Positions 813 through 37,515 of a DNA stretch of 47,816 nucleotides are shown one piece after another. This stretch comes from an uncultured Rhodospirillales bacterium (GTDB taxonomy: Bacteria; Pseudomonadota; Alphaproteobacteria; Acetobacterales; Acetobacteraceae): positions 1 to 47,816 of the forward strand of contig CAIMWH010000006.1 of NCBI GenBank assembly GCA_903845065.1, in the 5' to 3' direction. Under the pieces are notes generated by a model. It was given only the letters and a program-made list of their open reading frames with translations, was not told the DNA's origin and did not search any database. Made by a program: the position numbers and the translations under genes. Within the stretch, counting starts at the first letter, position 1. Every line of letters starts with the position of its first letter.

Positions 813-945
813 GGGCTGGTTCCCTCGGGACGTTGTTGGTCTTGCGGGCAGACTAGGGTGGGTTGGGTGGCGGCGTAAAGTGGCGGGTGGTTGACCGGGT
901 GGGGCGGGGAGGGCCAAGCTTCCGGCGGTTTGTTGGGGGTGTGCG

Positions 946-1599
946 ATGGCTGATCTAGTGGATATCCGGACGCGGTTGTTTGCGTCGTTGCTGTCCGATG
1001 TGATGGACGGGCTGGGGTATATGGACCAGGCGATGCCGCCTTCGATCCGGCCGCTCGACGATGCGTCGGTGATGGTGGGGCGGGCGCGCACGGCGTTGTT
1101 CATGGATGTGTATGAGGTGAAGGAGGGGGAGAACCCGTACGAGAATGAGATCGCGTTGATCGATAGTTTGCAGCCGGGGGATATTCCGGTGTTTTCGTGT
1201 GGGAAGACCGGGCGGATTGCGCCGTGGGGGGAGTTGCTGAGCACGGCTTCGAGCGTGCGCGGGGCGGCGGGGGCGCTGATGGATGGGCTGGTGCGGGATA
1301 TTCGGGCGATCCGGGCGATGGGGTTTCCGGTGTTTCATGGCGGGATCGGGCCGTTGGACAGCAAGGGGCGCGGCAAGATCATGGCGGTGGATGTGCCGAT
1401 CGAGTGTGCCGGGGTGAAGGTTTCGCCGGGGGATTTGATTTTCGGCGATGCGGATGGGGTGGTGGTGGTGCCGCGGGCGATCGAGGCGGCGGTGCTGGCG
1501 GCGGCGTATGAGAAGCTGAAGGGGGAGAAGAGCACGCTGGCGGATTTGCAGGCGGGGATTTCGCTGGGGGCGGTGTTCGCGAAGTATGGGATTTTGTGA
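946..1599 (+). CDS. RraA-family protein (HMG/CHA aldolase or oxaloacetate decarboxylase type)
   Basis: 217-residue RraA-like protein. Relatives are 4-hydroxy-4-methyl-2-oxoglutarate aldolases, oxaloacetate decarboxylases or RNase E regulators; next to an enolase-superfamily sugar-acid gene an aldolase/decarboxylase role is more likely. The fold signature is clear: WGELLS at 94-99, then RGAAGALMDGLVRDIRAI with the Arg118-Asp119 pair that binds substrate and divalent metal, and a C-terminal GDLIFGDADGVVVVP. Length is usual for the family. The enolase gene originally started 14 bp after the stop, but a GIY-YIG cassette now separates the two (see 1614-2059). Confidence 0.85.
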   Translation: MADLVDIRTRLFASLLSDVMDGLGYMDQAMPPSIRPLDDASVMVGRARTALFMDVYEVKEGENPYENEIALIDSLQPGDIPVFSCGKTGRIAPWGELLSTASSVRGAAGALMDGLVRDIRAIRAMGFPVFHGGIGPLDSKGRGKIMAVDVPIECAGVKVSPGDLIFGDADGVVVVPRAIEAAVLAAAYEKLKGEKSTLADLQAGISLGAVFAKYGIL

Positions 1600-1608
1600 G
1601 TTGGGGTG

Positions 1609-2055
1609 ATGCGATGCGTATCACTGGGCTGGAGACGGGGTGATGGGCAGTGTCTTGCTGGGTCGGGTGCGGGTATCCGACATCCTACCGACCATTGGCA
1701 CACGACAGTCTTGGCGGAAGGTGTCATTCCCGAGGAGCCTGGCATTTATGAGTGGCGTATCGAGGGTGTCGGTACATACATTGGAAAATATGGGCGCATC
1801 CGACGCCCCACCAAAGAATATGGCCGAAATGTCGCGCGATTACTATCAGGCCGCCCATATCGGACGGGGAAGCCGGATGGGTACCGAGCCATTCACTACG
1901 CGCTTGCTGAAGCAGTACGCGTTGGGCGGCCGATCATACTGACGATACTGGAGAACGTGGCTCCCGATCGAATCAATCAGCGCGAGCAGGAACTTATCAG
2001 AGAGCGTGGAGCAACGCTCAACGGTCCAGCATCGATGTTCAAGGCAGTCGTGTAA
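1609..2055 (+). CDS. Small GIY-YIG nuclease-domain protein
   Basis: The frame encodes a compact GIY-YIG nuclease domain. Counting from ATG 1609, GIY is at 45-47, YIG at 57-59, candidate catalytic arginines are Arg63/65/66, the metal-binding acid is Glu126 or Glu128 in INQREQEL, and Asn138 lies in TLNG. These are the five conserved elements of the family in the right order. The start is uncertain: ATG 1609 (or GTG 1606) lies in host DNA upstream of the duplicated repeat, so the first 10 codons may be borrowed or untranslated. The only other in-frame candidate before the domain is TTG 1711. Base composition is visibly less GC-rich than the neighbours. Relatives include homing endonucleases, UvrC and UPF0213-type proteins; DNA cleavage is inferred. 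Confidence 0.75.
   Translation: MRCVSLGWRRGDGQCLAGSGAGIRHPTDHWHTTVLAEGVIPEEPGIYEWRIEGVGTYIGKYGRIRRPTKEYGRNVARLLSGRPYRTGKPDGYRAIHYALAEAVRVGRPIILTILENVAPDRINQREQELIRERGATLNGPASMFKAVV
1614..1638 (+). repeat. Direct repeat copy 1 (duplicated 5' end of the enolase gene)
   Basis: Exact 25-bp match to 2060-2084, starting ATGCGTATCACTGGG. It retains the upstream GGGGTG ribosome-binding site and now opens a nine-codon dead-end reading frame that stops at TGA 1641-1643. Confidence 0.95.
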
Positions 2056-2059
2056 TCCC
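1614..2059 (+). mobile_element. 446-bp GIY-YIG cassette inserted at the start codon of the enolase gene
   Basis: The unit runs from the first base of repeat copy 1 to the base before repeat copy 2. It is flanked by an exact 25-bp direct repeat equal to the first 25 bases of the enolase-superfamily gene, carries essentially one ORF with a nuclease domain, and is AT-richer than its surroundings. Removing it restores a plain RraA-enolase operon with a 14-bp spacer and a GGGGTG ribosome-binding site before the ATG. Insertion is therefore the simplest reading. Its boundaries and mobility are inferred. Confidence 0.6.
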
Positions 2060-2084
2060 ATGCGTATCACTGGGCTGGAGACGG
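2060..2084 (+). repeat. Direct repeat copy 2 (start of the intact enolase gene)
   Basis: Exact 25-bp match to 1614-1638. The flanks diverge at once on both sides (GCG versus CCC before, G versus T after), so the repeat is bounded exactly. This copy is the one that continues into the full enolase reading frame. Confidence 0.95.
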
Positions 2085-3271
2085 TTCGCGCCGATTTTCA
2101 TGATAACCTGATCTGGGTGCGGATCGAGACCGAGGCCGGGTTGGTGGGGTTGGGGGAGACGTTCTTTTTTCCCTCGGCGGTGGAGGCGTATCTGCATGAT
2201 GTGGTGGCGCCGCAGCTGATTGGCGGGGATGCGTCGCGGATCGGGGCGTGGTCGGCGCGGTTGATGCGGGTGCCGGTGGGGTATGGGTCGTCCGGGGCGG
2301 AGATGCGGGCGGCGTCCGCGGTGGATATCGCGTTGTGGGATTTGATGGGGCAGGCGGCGGGGATGCCGGTGCATCGGCTGCTCGGCGGTTTGGCGCGGGA
2401 CAGGATCCGTATCTACAACACCTGCGCGGGGCCGCATTATGTGACCAAGGCGCGGACGGATATCGGGACCTGGTTCGGGCTGGGCGACGGTGGCCCCGAG
2501 AAGTTCGATGATTTGCGGGGGTTTCTGGAGCGGCCGGCGGAACTGGCGCGGGAGTTGCTGGCGGAGGGGATCACCGGGATGAAGATCTGGCCGTTCGATT
2601 ATGCGGCCGAGGCGAATGGGCGGATGTCGATCACCACGGCGCAGATCGAGGAGGGTTGCCGGCCGTTCCGGTTGATCCGCGAGGCGGTGGGGCGGCGGAT
2701 GGACTTGATGGTCGAGCTGCATTCGATGTGGGACATCGAGAGCGCCAAGCGGATATTCCGGGCGCTGGAGCCGTTGGAGCCGGCCTGGTTCGAGGACCCG
2801 ATCCGCATGGATGATGCGGAGGGGCTGGCGGAACTGGCGCGGTTTACCCGTATTCCGATCCTGGCCTCGGAGACGACGGCGCCGAAGGAGAGTTTCCGGC
2901 GGCTGCTGGAGCAGCGGGCGGTGGGGATCGTGTCGTTCGATGTGGGCTGGTGCGGCGGGATCAGCGAGGCGCAGCGGATTATCGCGCTGGCGGATGCCTG
3001 GCAGGTGCCGATTGCGCCGCATGATTGCACGGGGCCGGTGGGGTTCGTGGCGGGGACGCATTTGTCGCTGAGTGCGCGCAACGCGATGATCCAGGAGACG
3101 GTGCGGGCGTATACGCAGGGGTGGTACAACGAAATTGTTACTGCACTGCCGCCGATCGCGGACGGGTATTTGTCGCCGTTGATGGGGCCGGGATTGGGGT
3201 TGGCGCTGCGGCCGGAGTTTCTGGCGCGGGGCGATGTGCGGCGGCGGCGATCGGGCGCTGGGGCTGCCTGA
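2060..3271 (+). CDS. Enolase-superfamily (mandelate racemase/muconate-lactonizing type) protein, probable sugar-acid dehydratase
   Basis: 403 residues from ATG 2060 (MRITGLETVR). A capping domain is followed by a TIM barrel with metal ligands Glu219 (VELHSMWD), Glu245 (WFEDPIR) and Glu271 (ASETTAP). Candidate catalytic residues are Lys175 (GMKIWPFD) and His321 (APHDCTGP), with Asp294 nearby in SFDVGWCGG. This pattern suits proton abstraction next to a carboxylate, as in sugar-acid dehydratases; the substrate is unknown. A longer in-frame start exists upstream inside the GIY-YIG cassette, but conservation starts at 2060 and the duplicated sequence there marks the ancestral start. The present ribosome-binding site is weak (AAGGCAG, about 13 bp upstream), because the original one stayed with repeat copy 1. 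Confidence 0.88.
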   Translation: MRITGLETVRADFHDNLIWVRIETEAGLVGLGETFFFPSAVEAYLHDVVAPQLIGGDASRIGAWSARLMRVPVGYGSSGAEMRAASAVDIALWDLMGQAAGMPVHRLLGGLARDRIRIYNTCAGPHYVTKARTDIGTWFGLGDGGPEKFDDLRGFLERPAELARELLAEGITGMKIWPFDYAAEANGRMSITTAQIEEGCRPFRLIREAVGRRMDLMVELHSMWDIESAKRIFRALEPLEPAWFEDPIRMDDAEGLAELARFTRIPILASETTAPKESFRRLLEQRAVGIVSFDVGWCGGISEAQRIIALADAWQVPIAPHDCTGPVGFVAGTHLSLSARNAMIQETVRAYTQGWYNEIVTALPPIADGYLSPLMGPGLGLALRPEFLARGDVRRRRSGAGAA

Positions 3272-3525
3272 GGGCGCCGGCTGGGCGGAATTGCTGGATT
3301 TTCGTCGTTTTGTTGTGGGGTGGATTTGCAATTCGACGGTATGTCGGATGTAAATAATTTGTGAGCAATTTTGACTTAAAATATTACGACTAAGTTTTTC
3401 ACAATGAGTTTGACTCTAAAAATTATCCATGCAAGCGTTGGAGGCCAAGCAAGTCAGGTCGTTGCGATCTGCTTTATGGATTGATTCGGCCTGAGGCAAT
3501 CAAAAAATGCCAGGAGGGTTCGTCA
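3272..3525. promoter_or_regulatory. AT-rich intergenic region upstream of the M4 protease
   Basis: About 250 bp, with a markedly AT-rich stretch near 3340-3430 in otherwise about 70% GC DNA. TTGACT occurs at 3371 and 3410, but I cannot pair either with a convincing -10 at normal spacing. Probably holds the protease promoter. The ribosome-binding site AGGAGGG at 3512-3518 sits just before ATG 3526. Confidence 0.4.
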
Positions 3526-4572
3526 ATGACGTGTAAATGTTTTATTATTCCGCAGGAAGTTCTCAATCGCTTTGCGTCGGACCCGGAATTGTCGGACGCG
3601 GTGCGGCAGAATTTCCATCACTCGGCGCAGATCAGTGCGCTGCATCGGGCGGTGCGTGAGCAGAACAACGCGCTGACGCAGGGGGTGATTGGGCTGCCGT
3701 TGCCGCGGCCGCCGATTCCTTTTCCGCGGCTGCATCTGCTGCCGGCGGCGCATGTGTTCAATTGCCACAATACGACGACGCTGCCGGGGGCGCAGGTGGC
3801 CAATCCGGGGTCATCGGCGGATGGCACGGTGAAGCGGGCGTATGGTGAATCCGAGGGGGTGGCGAAGTTCTACTGGGACGTGTTCCAGCGGGATTCGATC
3901 GACGGCAACCACATGACCCTGGTTTCCTCGGTGCATTATTCGTCGAACTTCAACAACGCGTTCTGGAACGGGACGCAGATGACGTATGGCGATGGCGACG
4001 GGCAGCTTTTCGTGGATTTCACGCTCGGCGACGATGTGATCGGGCATGAGCTGACGCATGGGGTGACGCAGCATAGCCTGGGGTTGAACTACTCGGGCGA
4101 GGCGGGCGGGCTCAACGAGAGCATTTCGGACGTGTTCGGCTCGATGTTCCGCCAGTGGGAAAAGAACCAGACGGTGGCGCAGGCGGATTGGCTCATCGGG
4201 GCGGATATCATGGGGCCGGTGGCCAAGCAGAAGGGATATACGTGTCTGAGGAATATGGCGGCGCCGAAGGATACGCACGCGCTGGCGGCGCAGCCGGACC
4301 ACTATTATCCGGGTATCGGCAATCTCGATCCGCATTATTCGAGCGGGCCGCCCAACCTGGCGTTCTGCAAGGCGGCGGTGGCGCTGGGCGGGCATAGCTG
4401 GGAGAAGGCCGGGAAGGTCTGGTACAAGGCGCTGACCGGGTTCGGGCCGAGCCCCAACATGACGATGTCGCAGTTGGCCAACAGGACGCGTTCGGTTGCG
4501 CAGAGTTTGTTTCCGGCCGATCCTGCTGTTCATGCTGCTGTAGACAACGCCTGGACGGCCGTGGGCCTTTGA
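3526..4572 (+). CDS. M4 (thermolysin-family) metalloprotease, protealysin-like
   Basis: 348 residues. Zinc-binding HELTH spans 174-178, the third ligand Glu198 lies in GGLNESISD (20 residues after His178, as in thermolysin) and the transition-state His270 is in DPHYSSG. The N-terminus has no signal peptide. It carries a short propeptide with CFIIPQEVLNRFA, resembling the compact PxxxL-type precursor of protealysins rather than the long thermolysin prosequence. Start ATG 3526 follows a strong AGGAGGG; an in-frame TTG at 3481 lacks one. The next gene, 49 bp on, is an emfourin-like inhibitor, the known partner of protealysins. Lack of a signal peptide suggests intracellular action or non-classical export. 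Confidence 0.93.
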   Translation: MTCKCFIIPQEVLNRFASDPELSDAVRQNFHHSAQISALHRAVREQNNALTQGVIGLPLPRPPIPFPRLHLLPAAHVFNCHNTTTLPGAQVANPGSSADGTVKRAYGESEGVAKFYWDVFQRDSIDGNHMTLVSSVHYSSNFNNAFWNGTQMTYGDGDGQLFVDFTLGDDVIGHELTHGVTQHSLGLNYSGEAGGLNESISDVFGSMFRQWEKNQTVAQADWLIGADIMGPVAKQKGYTCLRNMAAPKDTHALAAQPDHYYPGIGNLDPHYSSGPPNLAFCKAAVALGGHSWEKAGKVWYKALTGFGPSPNMTMSQLANRTRSVAQSLFPADPAVHAAVDNAWTAVGL

Positions 4573-4621: not shown

Positions 4622-4894
4622 ATGGGCGACGTGGTGATCGAGCAAGTCGGGGGTTTCGTCGGTGGCGGAACCCCCATGGGGCATTTGCGGATGGAAGGGC
4701 GGGTGCCGTGGTCGGCGCTGTCGGCGGCGGACCAGGCTCAGGTGGATGCGCTGTTCAGGGCGCGGCGGCCGGTGAATGCGAATATGCGCTATCGGCTGCG
4801 GCGGGAGGGGCCCAACGGGACGGAGACCGTGGAGGCGCCGATCGAGGCGGTGCCGCAGGTGTTGATCGAGAGTGTTCGGACGACTTTGGAGTAG
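4622..4894 (+). CDS. Emfourin-like inhibitor of the upstream M4 protease
   Basis: 90-residue protein starting at ATG 4622 (GTG 4616 is an alternative). It opens with a strand and glycine-rich loop, IEQVGGFVGGG, has a central stretch ALSAADQAQVDALFRAR, then YRLRRE and an ending VPQVLIESVRTTLE. Overall size, the early GGF motif, the middle helix and the VPxxL-type C-terminal helix match the emfourin (M4in) family as I remember it. Position directly after a protealysin-like gene supports this, since those two are known to be co-operonic. The family call rests on recall and context, not a search. Confidence 0.65.
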   Translation: MGDVVIEQVGGFVGGGTPMGHLRMEGRVPWSALSAADQAQVDALFRARRPVNANMRYRLRREGPNGTETVEAPIEAVPQVLIESVRTTLE

Positions 4895-4902
4895 AGGGAA
4901 GG

Positions 4903-4926
4903 GGTTCTTTTTTGAAAAAAAGAACC
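4903..4926. terminator. AT-core hairpin 1 (GGTTCTTTTTT arms)
   Basis: Near-perfect palindrome with GGTTCTTTTTT/AAAAAAGAACC arms, 8 bp after the emfourin stop and followed by an A tract. Reads as a terminator in both directions. Confidence 0.7.
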
Positions 4927-4937
4927 AAAAAACGTCT

Positions 4938-4985
4938 ATCCGATGGCTTCGCCACTCTCCCGGGAGAGGGGCGAAGCCATCGGAT
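4938..4985. terminator. Long GC hairpin with nested palindrome between convergent genes
   Basis: Perfect 16-bp arms, 4938-4953 and 4970-4985 (beginning ATCCGATGGC), enclose a loop that itself contains the perfect palindrome CTCTCCCGGGAGAG at 4955-4968. A run of six A follows on the + strand. A bidirectional terminator or cruciform-forming repeat. Confidence 0.75.
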
Positions 4986-4998
4986 AAAAAAGGTTTTT

Positions 4999-5021
4999 GC
5001 TTCTTTTTTTCAAAAAGAAGC
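4999..5021. terminator. AT-core hairpin 2 (GCTTCTTTTT arms)
   Basis: GCTTCTTTTT and AAAAAGAAGC arms around a three-base centre, 10 bp beyond the stop of the minus-strand phosphatase. The same motif recurs at 47790-47811, so it is a reused terminator or dispersed repeat type in this genome. Confidence 0.7.
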
Positions 5022-5030
5022 GCTCGCTGC

Positions 5031-5585
5031 CTACAACTCTGCCGCCGGCACCAGCTCCCAAGGCGCGCCAGGCCGGCAGAAGAACGGCATGGCGTTGGCG
5101 GTGCGGACGTTGGGTTCGAGGCCCATTTCGGCGCGCAGGGCGCGGAACAGGGCGCCGTGGGCGACGACGAGGACCGGGGCGGGCTGGGCGAGGGCGCGGT
5201 TGATGGCGGCGACCGCGCGGGTGCGCAGGCTGGTGAAGCTTTCGGCGTCCTCGGGCGTGTAGGTGCCGGCGACCCAATCATTGAACCACTGGACCATCGG
5301 TTTGCCTTCCTGGCTGCCGAAGGAGACTTCGCGCAGGCCTTCGTCGAGCTGGACGGTATGGCCGGTGAGGGCCGCGACCGCGAGGGCGGTGTCATGCGCG
5401 CGGGAGAGCGGGGAGGCGACGATGCTGGCGATGCCGCGGTGGCGCATCATCTCGGCGGCGGCGAGGGCCTGGGCGCGGCCGGTTTCGTTGAGCGGGATAT
5501 CGATGTTGCCCTGGCTGAGGCCCTGGGCGTTCCAGTCGGTCTCGCCGTGGCGGAGGAACCAGAAGGCGCGGTGGAGGAGGGACAT
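5031..5585 (-). CDS. Histidine phosphatase family protein (phosphoglycerate-mutase-like)
   Basis: 184 residues with the branch-defining LRHGETDWN near the N-terminus (phospho-accepting His13), SPLSRAHDTA, and the second catalytic histidine in VVAHGALFRAL. Length and motifs fit small phosphatases or phosphoglycerate mutase-like enzymes; the substrate cannot be told. Start ATG 5585 sits 8 bp after the prs stop, so the two are almost certainly co-transcribed. The gene ends at the hairpin block before the convergent emfourin gene. Confidence 0.9.
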   Translation of the reverse strand: MSLLHRAFWFLRHGETDWNAQGLSQGNIDIPLNETGRAQALAAAEMMRHRGIASIVASPLSRAHDTALAVAALTGHTVQLDEGLREVSFGSQEGKPMVQWFNDWVAGTYTPEDAESFTSLRTRAVAAINRALAQPAPVLVVAHGALFRALRAEMGLEPNVRTANAMPFFCRPGAPWELVPAAEL

Positions 5586-33850: not shown

Positions 33851-35449
33851 CTAGTCGAACAAAGTCGCCAGGCGCTGCTTGATGCTGTCGGCGATGTAGA
33901 GGGCCAGCGCCTGGATGGTGGAGGTGGGGTTCACGCCGCCGGAGGTGACGAAGATGCTGCCGTCGACGATGAAGAGGTTTTTCACGTCGTGGCTGCGGCC
34001 CCAGCCGTTCACCACGGAGCGGGTGGGGTCGTCGCCCATGCGGGCGGTGCCGAGGAGGTGCCAGCCGCCAAACAGGATGGGGCGTTCGACGCCGATATCG
34101 GTGGCGCCGGCGGCGGCGAGGATTTCGCGGGCGCGGGCGATGCCGTGATCGAGCATGCGGTGGCTGTTTTCGGAGATGGTGTAGTCGATTTTAGGTGACG
34201 GGATGCCGTTGCTGTCCTTGAGGACGGGATCGAGGGTGACGCGGTTGTGTTCCTCGGGGAGGTCTTCGCAGATGGCGGACATGCCGATGCGGTGGTTCAT
34301 CAGGCGGCGATAGGCGGCGTGGTGGTCGTCGCCCCAGGGGAGGCGGCCGGCGGCGGTGCTGGAGATGGCTTCGGTGATGGTGCCGATGCCGCGGCCGAGT
34401 TGGTAGGAGTAGCCGCGGACGAAGCCGCGCGATTTGTCGGTTTCGTAGAACTCGTGGCTCCACAGGCAGAGCGGCGGGCCGTGGTTGCCGTCGAGCGGTT
34501 CCTCCGCGTAGCCGTAGATTTGCGCGTAGGGGTGGAACATCAGGTTCTTGCCGACCAGGCCGCTGGAGTTGGCGAGGCCGTTGGGGAAGCGCTCGGATTT
34601 GGAATTGAGCAGCAGGCGCGGAGTGCCGACGCCGTTGCAGGCGACGATGACGACTTCGGCGGGCTGGAAGTGTTCGGCGCCGTCGGCGTCGTAATAGATG
34701 GCGCCGGTGGCCATGCCGTTTTCGCCGGTGGTGATTTCGCGGACGCGGCAGCGGGTGCGCAGTTCTACGCCGGCGCGGATGGCTGCGGGCCAGTAGGTGA
34801 TATCGGTGCTGGCCTTGGCGCCCTGGGCGCAGCCGTACATGCAGTGGGCCAGGTTGATGCAGCGGGCGCGGCCGTCATAGTCGGTGGTGGCGAGCGTGGT
34901 GTCGGACGGCCACCAGTGCCAGCCGAGCTTGTTGAGCGCCTGGGCGAAGCGGGTGCCGGATTTGCCGAGGGGCAGCGGCGCCATGGGGGGCTGGTGGGCG
35001 GGGTAGGCGGGATCGCCGGCGAGGCCGGAGACGCCCATCATGCGGTCATTTTCGGCGAAGAAGGGTTCGAGGGTTTTGTAGTCGACCGGCCAGTCGTCGG
35101 CGACGCCATCGAGGGTGCGGACGCGGAAATCGGAGGGGTGCAGACGGGGGAAGTGGGCGGCGTAGAGGATGGTGCTGCCGCCGACGCCGTTGAAGTTGAG
35201 CACCTTGATCGGCGAGTTGTCGTCATTCACCGGGTAATCGGTGGGGCGGGCGCGGCGGTTGGGGCTGGCGTTGAAATCGGTGAACTGGCGGGCTTCCCAG
35301 TCGCGCCCGTTGGTGGGGTATTCGGTGGGCTTCACCCAGTCGCCCTGTTCGAGGCAGAGGATGCGCATCTTGGTTTCGGCCAGGCTCCACGCCACCGCGG
35401 CGCCGGACGCGCCTGATCCGATGATCAGGACATCGACTTTTTCTTGCAT
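33851..35449 (-). CDS. GMC-family flavoprotein, gluconate 2-dehydrogenase large-subunit-like (copy A)
   Basis: 532 residues. FAD-binding VDVLIIGSGASGAAVAW, the GVGGSTILYAAHFPR second flavin loop, VEVVIVACNGVGTPRLLLNS-type NAD/FAD segment (here AEVVIVACNGVGTP), and active-site GGWHLLGTARMG (His) with SGGVNPTSTIQALALYIAD (Asn). No signal peptide. It would oxidise a sugar acid or alcohol and pass electrons onward. Its partner is the small subunit 13 bp upstream. A second copy lies beyond that. Confidence 0.93.
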   Translation of the reverse strand: MQEKVDVLIIGSGASGAAVAWSLAETKMRILCLEQGDWVKPTEYPTNGRDWEARQFTDFNASPNRRARPTDYPVNDDNSPIKVLNFNGVGGSTILYAAHFPRLHPSDFRVRTLDGVADDWPVDYKTLEPFFAENDRMMGVSGLAGDPAYPAHQPPMAPLPLGKSGTRFAQALNKLGWHWWPSDTTLATTDYDGRARCINLAHCMYGCAQGAKASTDITYWPAAIRAGVELRTRCRVREITTGENGMATGAIYYDADGAEHFQPAEVVIVACNGVGTPRLLLNSKSERFPNGLANSSGLVGKNLMFHPYAQIYGYAEEPLDGNHGPPLCLWSHEFYETDKSRGFVRGYSYQLGRGIGTITEAISSTAAGRLPWGDDHHAAYRRLMNHRIGMSAICEDLPEEHNRVTLDPVLKDSNGIPSPKIDYTISENSHRMLDHGIARAREILAAAGATDIGVERPILFGGWHLLGTARMGDDPTRSVVNGWGRSHDVKNLFIVDGSIFVTSGGVNPTSTIQALALYIADSIKQRLATLFD

Positions 35450-35462
35450 GGTTCGCGTTCCT

Positions 35463-35909
35463 TCAGGGCGCGTCGCGCCAGAAGCGGGGGCGGGTGCGGA
35501 CCTGGTCGAGCAGCGACCAGTCGCCCTGTTCGACCACGTGGCCCTTGGGGAAGGGCGGGCGGGGTTCGAGGTTGAGCGAGCGCATCACCCGGTCATCACG
35601 GTAGTAGCAGAGCAGGACGAGGCGGGTGAGGATGGCGAGGGGTTGGCCGCCTTCGGCGCGGAAATCGCCGACCACGGCGCCGCGACGATCGGGGTCGAGG
35701 CTGGCGAAGCTGCCGCCCGCGAGGCGGGCGAGGTTGGCGAGGGCGGTTCGCACATCGGCGAAATCGCGGCCGAGGCTCTGCAGCATGTCGGCCATGATGA
35801 GGTCGTCATCGGCGCCGGGCACGCTGTAGGCGGTGCTGGCGGGGATGATCATGCCGGCGAGGCATTTGAGGTCACGGGCTTCGGCGGGGGAGAGGGTTTC
35901 GGTCGGCAT
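35463..35909 (-). CDS. Gluconate 2-dehydrogenase subunit 3-like small subunit
   Basis: 148 residues: LSPAEARDLKCLAGMIIPAST, SVPGADDDLIMADMLQ, then a helical middle and LVLLCYYRDDRVMRSLNLEPRPPFPKGH, matching the Gluconate_2-dh3 family (the gamma subunit that helps mature and export the flavoprotein). Unlike classical versions it has no Tat signal peptide. Shared, apparently, by the two flanking GMC copies. Confidence 0.8.
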   Translation of the reverse strand: MPTETLSPAEARDLKCLAGMIIPASTAYSVPGADDDLIMADMLQSLGRDFADVRTALANLARLAGGSFASLDPDRRGAVVGDFRAEGGQPLAILTRLVLLCYYRDDRVMRSLNLEPRPPFPKGHVVEQGDWSLLDQVRTRPRFWRDAP

Positions 35910-35916
35910 GGGTGCC

Positions 35917-37515
35917 TCAATCGAACAGGGTTGCGAGGCGCTGCTTCATCTGGTCGGCGATGTAGAGGGCCAGGGCTTGGATGGTGGAGGTGGGGTTCAC
36001 GCCGCCGGAGGTGACGAAGATGCTGCCGTCGACGATGAAGAGGTTTTTCACATCATGGCTGCGGCCCCATTCGTTGACCACGGAACGGGCGGGGTCGGTG
36101 CCCATGCGGGCGGTGCCGAGGAGGTGCCAGCCGGCGTACATCAGCGGGGCCATGGTGTGGACCTCGCGGGCGCCGGCGGCGGCGAGGATTTCCTTGGCGC
36201 GGGCGATGGCGTGATCGAGCATCAGGCTGGTGTTGGCGCCGATGGCGTAGTCGATCTTGGGCGCCGGGATGCCGTGGCCGTCCTTCAGGACCGGATCGAG
36301 GGTGACGCGGTTGTGTTCCTCGGGGAGATCCTCGGTGCAGACGCCGACGGACATGCGGCGGCCGACCAGGCCGCGGAATGTTTCGTGGTGGCGCTCGCCC
36401 CAGGGCAGGATGCCGGCGGCTTCGGTGGCGACGGCTTCGGTGGCGACGCCGATGCCGCGGTTGAATTGCAGGTTGTAGCCGCGCACGAAGCCGCGCGAGA
36501 GGTCGGTTTCGTAGAACTCCTGGCTCCAGACGCAGAGGGGCGGGCCGCGATGGCCGTCCATCGGTTCGTCGAGGTAGCCGTAGATGGTGGCCCAGGGGTG
36601 GAACATCAGGTTCTTGCCGACGAGACCGCTGGAATTGGCGAGGCCGTTGGGGAAGCGGGCGGATTTGGAGTTGAGCAGCAGGCGGGGGGTGCCGACGCCG
36701 TTGCAGGCGACGATGACGACTTCGGCGGGCTGGAACTGCTCGACGCCATCGGCATCGAAGTAGACCACGCCGGTGGCCATGTCGTTTTCGTCGGTGAGGA
36801 TTTCCTTCACCCGGCAGTTCGTCCGCAGTTCGACGCCGGCGCGGACGGCGTGGGGCCAGTAGGTGATGTCGGTGCTGGCCTTGGCGCCTTGGGAGCAGGC
36901 GGGGGTGCAGTGGCCGAGATTGATGCAGGGGGCGCGGCCGTCATATTCCTGGGTGGCGAGCGAGGTATCGGACGGCCACCAGTGCCAGCCGAGCTTGTTC
37001 ATCGCCTGGCCGATGCGGGTGCCGGATTTGCCGAGGGGCAAAGGCGGCATGGGGGGTTGGTGGGCGGGGTAGGCGGGGTCTCCGGTCAGGCCGGAGACGC
37101 CCATCATGCGGTCATTTTCGGCGAAGAAGGGTTCGAGGGTTTTGTAGTCGACCGGCCAGTCATCGGCGACGCCGTCCAGGGTGCGGACTTTGAAGTCCGA
37201 CGGGTGGAGGCGGGGGAAGTGGGCGGTGTACATCACGGTGGAGCCGCCGACGGCGTTGAAGTTCACCACCTTGATGGGCGAGTTGTCGTCGTTGATGGGG
37301 TAGTCGGAGGGGCGTTTGCGGATATTGGGCGAGGTGGCGAAGTCACTGTAGAGGCGGGCTTCGTAGTCCTTCCGGGTGGAGGGGTATTCGCTGGGTTTCA
37401 TCCAGTCGCCCTGTTCGAGGCACAGGATGCGCATCTTGGTTTCGGCGAGGCTCCACGCCACGGCGGCGCCGGAGGCTCCGGAGCCGATAATGAGGACGTC
37501 GACCTTGTCTTTCAT
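35917..37515 (-). CDS. GMC-family flavoprotein, gluconate 2-dehydrogenase large-subunit-like (copy B)
   Basis: 532 residues, the same length as copy A and alike along the whole chain: same VDVLIIGSGASGAAVAW start, same GGWHLLGTARMG and SGGVNPTSTIQ ends. Differences cluster in the middle (for example CTPACSQGAKAS versus CMYGCAQGAKAS, and MTAPLMYAGWH-type MAPLMYAGWH versus ERPILFGGWH near the active site), suggesting different substrates. Starts 8 bp after the D-2-hydroxyacid dehydrogenase stop. Confidence 0.93.
   Translation of the reverse strand: MKDKVDVLIIGSGASGAAVAWSLAETKMRILCLEQGDWMKPSEYPSTRKDYEARLYSDFATSPNIRKRPSDYPINDDNSPIKVVNFNAVGGSTVMYTAHFPRLHPSDFKVRTLDGVADDWPVDYKTLEPFFAENDRMMGVSGLTGDPAYPAHQPPMPPLPLGKSGTRIGQAMNKLGWHWWPSDTSLATQEYDGRAPCINLGHCTPACSQGAKASTDITYWPHAVRAGVELRTNCRVKEILTDENDMATGVVYFDADGVEQFQPAEVVIVACNGVGTPRLLLNSKSARFPNGLANSSGLVGKNLMFHPWATIYGYLDEPMDGHRGPPLCVWSQEFYETDLSRGFVRGYNLQFNRGIGVATEAVATEAAGILPWGERHHETFRGLVGRRMSVGVCTEDLPEEHNRVTLDPVLKDGHGIPAPKIDYAIGANTSLMLDHAIARAKEILAAAGAREVHTMAPLMYAGWHLLGTARMGTDPARSVVNEWGRSHDVKNLFIVDGSIFVTSGGVNPTSTIQALALYIADQMKQRLATLFD

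Follow-up and report, generated by a model that had tools for sequence, protein, structure and literature searches.

How did a gene for a small GIY-YIG nuclease come to lie between an RraA-like gene and an enolase-superfamily gene, and why does the start of the enolase gene stand on both sides of it? The first-pass annotation of this DNA had proposed a self-mobilizing element that cuts at gene starts and leaves its target whole. The features on which the answer turns are given below, one per line, with positions counted in the window (the whole 47,816-nucleotide stretch of DNA analyzed).

946..1599, + strand: RraA-like/aldolase gene (Pfam RraA-like, E 9.7e-34), upstream of the insertion
1600..1613, + strand: leader with the ribosome-binding-like sequence GGGGTGAT
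1614..1638, + strand: direct repeat copy 1, equal to the first 25 bases of the enolase gene
1614..1643, + strand: nine-codon frame (MRITGLETG, then stop) whose stop codon overlaps ATG 1643 (TGATG)
1639..2059, + strand: insert of 421 bp, with GC below that of its neighbors
1711..2055, + strand: GIY-YIG nuclease gene; frame open from GTG 1606/ATG 1609, in-insert start TTG 1711
2060..2084, + strand: direct repeat copy 2, the start of the intact enolase gene
2060..3271, + strand: enolase-superfamily gene (MR/MLE-type dehydratase-like, 403 aa; Pfam MR_MLE_C and MR_MLE_N)

The sequence ATGCGTATCACTGGGCTGGAGACGG is present at both repeat positions with exact identity over 25 bp, the copies lying 446 bp apart from start to start with 421 bp intervening. 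The structural description given by the first-pass annotation holds: the first 25 enolase bases occur twice and are exactly bounded, the DNA between them has lower GC and contains one GIY-YIG frame, the repeat re-creates the enolase start so that the target gene is whole (403 intact codons from 2060), and the upstream copy, which has a good ribosome-binding site, opens a frame of nine codons. The GGGG of GGGGTGAT, a sequence that we take to match the anti-Shine-Dalgarno, ends 7 nt ahead of the ATG of copy 1, and the stretch 1600..1613 is probably the original enolase leader. As copy 1 has the ribosome-binding site, it appears to be the original start of the enolase gene, and the same site ahead of it suggests that RraA and the enolase gene already adjoined each other when the insertion took place. 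Copy 2 starts 4 nt past the TAA of the GIY-YIG gene, and no ribosome-binding site is evident in the sequence before it. Translation of the enolase gene would now depend on restart past the nuclease stop codon (TAA, 4 nt, ATG).

A repeat of 25 bp is far above chance. When a gene of similar size was placed at random in the window, the flanking repeat was 15 bp or shorter in 297 of 300 trials, and the three placements that exceeded 15 bp all struck the 25-bp repeat itself. A survey of 81 pieces of the genome (1,065,326 of 5,906,210 bases, 18%) for pairs of at least 24 bp spaced 100-2500 bp apart gave three direct-repeat pairs, apart from one long duplication of 2066-bp spacing in the window. The 1614/2060 pair has the shortest spacing of the three (446 bp versus 900 and 1301 bp), and no second pair of like spacing and length was found in that 18% of the genome. 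The GC content of the insert is 56.8%, versus 63.6% for RraA and 66.6% for the enolase gene, and third codon positions are G or C in 63 of the 114 codons of the GIY-YIG gene counted from 1711 (55%) versus 179 of 217 in RraA and 341 of 403 in the enolase gene (82-85%). By composition the GIY-YIG gene looks foreign. No terminal inverted repeats were seen at the insert ends by eye or among the longest 25 of the 26 inverted pairs listed, the 25-mer has no clear inverted core by eye, no attC-like site was found by pattern scan of window 901-3400, and the 421-bp insert contains no recombinase gene.

The open frame of the nuclease already starts ahead of the insert and runs through repeat copy 1 in a different frame from the enolase start. 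The candidate start codons are GTG 1606 or ATG 1609, both outside the insert, and TTG 1711, which is the one common start codon in frame between the left end of the insert and the GIY motif. The first bases of the insert are GGTG-ATG, and this ATG (1643) does not lie in the GIY-YIG frame (window 1640-1710); one base lost near 1690 may account for this, as its restoration would join the two frames. Such a reading fits a by-eye comparison with the relative L042, although the frame-1 reading is about equally good, and for such short stretches GC3 gives no decision between the two (frame 2, 13 of 17; frame 1, 12 of 22). The superfamily motifs GIY, YIGK, R, E, and LNG (the conserved Arg, Glu, and Asn) are present by eye in alignments; L042 has YIS where the others have YIG. 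An AlphaFold2 model of 119 residues (mean pLDDT 85.9, pTM 0.80) predicts the GIY-YIG fold, and the seven best Foldseek matches in the PDB are six UvrC GIY-YIG chains and one I-TevI catalytic domain, at modest values (probability 0.98-1.00, E 0.0081-0.030, all above 0.001). The model shows a protein of a single domain, about 115-120 aa long, and no additional DNA-binding domain. Pfam, PHROGs, and PADLOC gave no match to it at E cutoffs of 1 to 10, NCBIfam gave a weak match to UvrC (E 0.058), and a profile search of the sequences of solved structures gave none. When six relatives were scanned against Pfam, L052 alone matched GIY-YIG (E 0.5). A known defense gene was considered and rejected, there being no PADLOC match.

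The account that we favor, with moderate confidence, is that the insert is horizontally acquired GIY-YIG cargo, placed within the enolase gene by an illegitimate event of the repair type. A GIY-YIG gene of the type found as cargo in integron cassettes, plasmids, and intergenic hotspots would have arrived horizontally and been inserted 25 bp into the enolase gene of an RraA-enolase operon, a break or template switch leaving 25 bp of the target on either side. This would have re-created a complete enolase gene immediately past the nuclease stop codon, and the insertion would have been retained since the enolase gene was preserved. Read in this manner, the locus is a clean, apparently recent case of a foreign gene entering an operon without killing the gene that it hit. 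The tidy boundaries speak against a repair-type insertion: copy 2 coincides with the enolase gene from the first base of its ATG, and just 4 nt of insert follow the nuclease stop codon. A bare 25-bp target duplication is also unusual for random end joining, and neither donor DNA nor a true empty site was found among the sequences searched. Note that selection for an intact enolase gene would favor tidy boundaries, without proving that the insertion was of the repair type.

The first-pass annotation had proposed that relatives be searched for the RraA-enolase pair free of the insert. The four other genomes examined from the genus indeed gave no match to the nuclease gene, but none of them has RraA adjoining the enolase gene, and we found no clean empty site. 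RraA of the window is 91-93% identical to its counterparts in G001, G002, G003, and G004, and the enolase orthologues of G001, G002, and G004 are 82-84% identical. In the nearest genomes the place is taken by an amidohydrolase gene: the order in G001 and G002 is RraA, amidohydrolase, enolase orthologue, with synteny continuing on the far side, and in G004 the amidohydrolase and enolase genes are together with RraA elsewhere. The amidohydrolase gene begins no more than 75 bp past RraA in 16 of 29 other RraA loci, and the enolase gene directly follows RraA in none of the 29 (nine further RraA matches without a locus were left out of this set, and at least three loci, L163, L171, and L185, end 60-560 bp past RraA). 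The assembly from which the window comes has only paralogues of 30% identity to the amidohydrolase, an absence that is to be read against an assembly of 380 contigs and 96.39% completeness. Because only such paralogues remain there and the gene is present in G001, G002, and G004, the probable history of the window lineage is loss of the amidohydrolase gene and gain of the nuclease gene, the loss probably coming before or with the insertion.

A different small-gene arrangement was seen at the same start codon in G002, a sister species (L035, G002:C83, - strand; enolase 4280-3084), where a pair of small genes lies directly before the enolase ATG. The second encodes a ParE-like toxin (Pfam ParE_toxin, E 1.7e-5), and the pair fills 536 bp between the expected enolase start place and the enolase ATG. 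For the 25 bases ahead of the first small gene, similarity was seen to the leaders of the enolase genes in G001 (shuffle fraction 0.006) and G004 (0.0115), and for the 25 that precede the G002 enolase gene, to the G001 leader (0.0105). Fifteen pairs were compared, which makes any one value near 0.01 weak. The two G002 flanks are not clearly alike (shuffle fraction 0.20), and the window flanks showed no resemblance to the sister enolase leaders (best shuffle fraction 0.84). The resemblance of the left flank of the G002 pair to the enolase leaders of other species suggests that the enolase start codon may have taken an insertion twice within the genus.

Relatives of the nuclease were then counted in progressively wider collections. 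The own genome has one clear copy, its only other match being weak (E 0.26). Five of 100 related genomes matched at E 0.01 or better, namely the own genome and four weak matches. A domain-only search matched three of 397 family genomes (the own genome, a fragment in G275, and a weak match in G412), and profile searches matched one of 385 genomes of the class (the own genome) and three of 398 genomes of the phylum (the own genome, G928, and G1122). Matches were found in two of 72,556 annotated plasmid records, in none of 50,697 phage records, and at four loci of genome contigs; three scans of viral contigs gave one locus, two being empty and the third giving L050, an integron array. A prophage or phage origin was rejected on the strength of the empty phage records and of L050 being the sole viral-contig match. 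These counts across genomes, plasmids, phages, and contigs show that the nuclease family is rare and scattered, as expected for mobile cargo. The locus points to a small GIY-YIG family that has no match in four profile libraries and whose members ride in integrons and plasmids.

The settings of the relatives are integron cassettes, plasmids, an intergenic hotspot, and other contexts. Scanning of L050 gave eight well-folding attC-like sites (two overlapping rows counted once and one weak row dropped), and by eye attC-like sequence lies on either side of its gene, with common blocks of 10-12 bp. L051 is cassette-like, having one attC-like site directly after the gene and a second 0.7 kb on, after the next ORF. 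The strict and first loosened patterns found nothing at the L051 or L053 genes, and the two L051 sites came from a further loosened pattern set after the L051 sequence had been seen, which makes their support weaker than that of L050. The further loosened pattern found no site in 2,035,020 strand-bases of the own genome and none at the gene of L053, a distant relative in the same genome as L051 at which the other scans also found no attC-like site. Plasmid relatives come from Burkholderia and Synechocystis; L040 and L041 are plasmid records, and L044 is a record titled unlocalized plasmid scaffold. L052 (G928, 1377-2141) lies between genes reading as tuf and rpsJ. By eye the same spacing holds a MazEF-like pair in G1174 and an HNH-like gene in G1188, and it is about 165 bp in G1173 and G1180 (six relatives fetched, four read in detail). 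The tuf-like/rpsJ-like spacing (L052, L066, L067) is a small-gene insertion hotspot across species of one genus. At L038 of G275 (1546-1902 onward) a C-terminal GIY-YIG-like fragment is fused in frame to an apparent antitoxin and followed by a toxin-like frame, with unrelated genes on both sides.

Ten relatives were tested for flanking direct repeats using 400 bp on each side of the gene (54 bp downstream for L043), a test that would miss an element extending well beyond the gene and 400 bp of flank. In nine of the ten the longest repeat was 9 bp or there was none of at least 9 bp, and the 12-bp repeat of L050 is part of attC, as compared with 25 bp in the window. The ten relatives therefore have no flanking direct repeats beyond chance or attC. 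Since its relatives lack a flanking duplication, the insert looks like an apparent one-off insertion scar, not a new kind of jumping element. The first-pass annotation was thus right about an insertion-like foreign GIY-YIG gene and the rescue of the gene hit, whereas self-mobilization was not supported: the nuclease is single copy, and other locus-specific repeats of about 25 bp around such a protein, which the annotation had suggested looking for, were found neither in the own genome nor in the ten relatives. Homologues without flanking repeats were an outcome that the annotation itself had named as refuting its reading.

The main rival to a repair-type insertion is one-sided homologous recombination, which we judge unlikely. 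The donor would already have had the GIY-YIG gene directly before a near-identical enolase gene; homology within the enolase gene would have served on the right and an illegitimate join 25 bp into the recipient enolase gene on the left, in which case copy 1 would be the stump of the recipient gene rather than a target-site duplication. This accounts for both the operon-like right junction (TAA, 4 nt, ATG) and the arbitrary left junction, and a one-sided homologous/illegitimate process is described for bacteria (PMC3240628). However, the donor must have been identical over the first 25 bases, no genome was found with the nuclease gene before the enolase gene and without copy 1, and the relatives that have an enolase orthologue carry amidohydrolase or toxin genes at that place.

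Self-mobilization in the strict sense, in which the nuclease makes nicks at a gene start, offset by about 25 nt between the two strands, and filling of the gaps yields the 25-bp duplication, seems to us very improbable. A perfect 25-bp repeat around a minimal nuclease gene speaks for it, and the GIY-YIG enzyme I-TevI cuts 23 and 25 nt from the intron insertion site (PMC2988022), a parallel that is only suggestive. The same source has known GIY-YIG homing enzymes leaving 2-nt 3' extensions, which counts against 25-nt nicking, and free-standing ones cutting far from their own gene. Homing calls for the insertion to destroy the recognition site, and a site lying entirely within the 25-mer would instead have ended up in two copies. 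The lack of such repeats in the ten relatives and the single copy in the own genome led us to reject self-mobilization as the main reading; the lack of a like pair in 18% of the genome and the one-domain protein also argue against it. A nuclease-made target duplication is possible and unsupported, and the 25-bp duplication was presumably not made by the nuclease itself. Were it true that the nuclease made the duplication, a minimal self-inserting element that spares its target would be new.

Site-specific integration in trans, the repeat being attL and attR from a recombinase encoded elsewhere that re-created the gene start, has an equally small chance of being correct. Integrase products typically have direct repeats by which the target gene is restored, and several relatives are integron cassettes. 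Opposed to this are the absence of an attC-like site in window 901-3400, of a recombinase in the 421 bp, and of a clear inverted core in the 25-mer by eye, and there is no second copy of the cassette. An integron cassette at a secondary site was likewise rejected for the window, for lack of an attC-like site. Slimmer again is the chance of a one-gene element that enters at start codons through nicks offset by about 25 nt on the two strands, its gap filling duplicating the start and keeping the target alive while the nine-codon stump (TGATG) feeds it ribosomes from the ribosome-binding site of the target. Least probable of all is an artefact of assembly or sequencing by which a stray nuclease fragment came to be joined into the operon. 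Although the draft has 380 contigs and a contamination estimate of 4.37%, the repeat junctions sit 1.6-2.1 kb into a contig of 47.8 kb, and synteny with G001 and G002 extends over both neighbor genes and the region beyond.

The locus resembles several known systems in part. Like the free-standing GIY-YIG homing endonucleases (seg) of phage T4, the window has a small GIY-YIG gene between two conserved genes, and its protein has a predicted catalytic fold like that of I-TevI. In contrast to seg, the window gene is a bacterial chromosomal gene for a single-domain protein with no relative in the 50,697 phage records, and it has a 25-bp target duplication; no sign of homing and no cognate empty allele was found. 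Free-standing homing endonuclease genes usually insert by gene conversion without target duplication, whereas the window has a duplication. Insertion sequences also have a direct repeat of the target flanking the insert, but the window insert has no transposase and no evident terminal inverted repeats and is single copy; its 25-bp repeat is longer than most insertion-sequence duplications, and the same element with different flanking repeats was found neither in the own genome nor in the ten relatives. The fold is like that of the UvrC N-terminal GIY-YIG domain (six of the seven best PDB matches and the weak NCBIfam match), although the window gene stands alone without the UvrC partner domains. 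The relatives L050 and L051, as cassettes or cassette-like genes, resemble integron GIY-YIG cassettes, unlike the window copy, which has no attC-like site and is flanked by a 25-bp direct repeat. An Aeromonas class 4-like integron carries a GIY-YIG nuclease cassette, orf6 (PMC10609294). Our limited literature search found no description of a GIY-YIG cassette with a 25-bp target duplication.

Other parts of the window gave separate observations. A gene at 3481-4572, reading by eye like an M4-type peptidase, lies behind a stretch of 40% GC (3301-3500), and the alignments with G001 and G002 jump from about 3222 to 5013-5044, spanning this gene; the region may be a second lineage-specific insertion beside the enolase gene. 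At 4894-5024 a near-perfect palindrome of 25+25 nt lies between A/T-rich inverted arms. A similar stretch occurs in L034 (82% over 131 columns) and, for some of its length, in L035, the 13-base core has six matches in 1.07 Mb of the own genome, and the palindrome is possibly a dispersed palindromic repeat. The duplication of 2066-bp spacing set apart in the repeat survey is a long tandem duplication at 33887-37424 with exact blocks of up to 74 bp.
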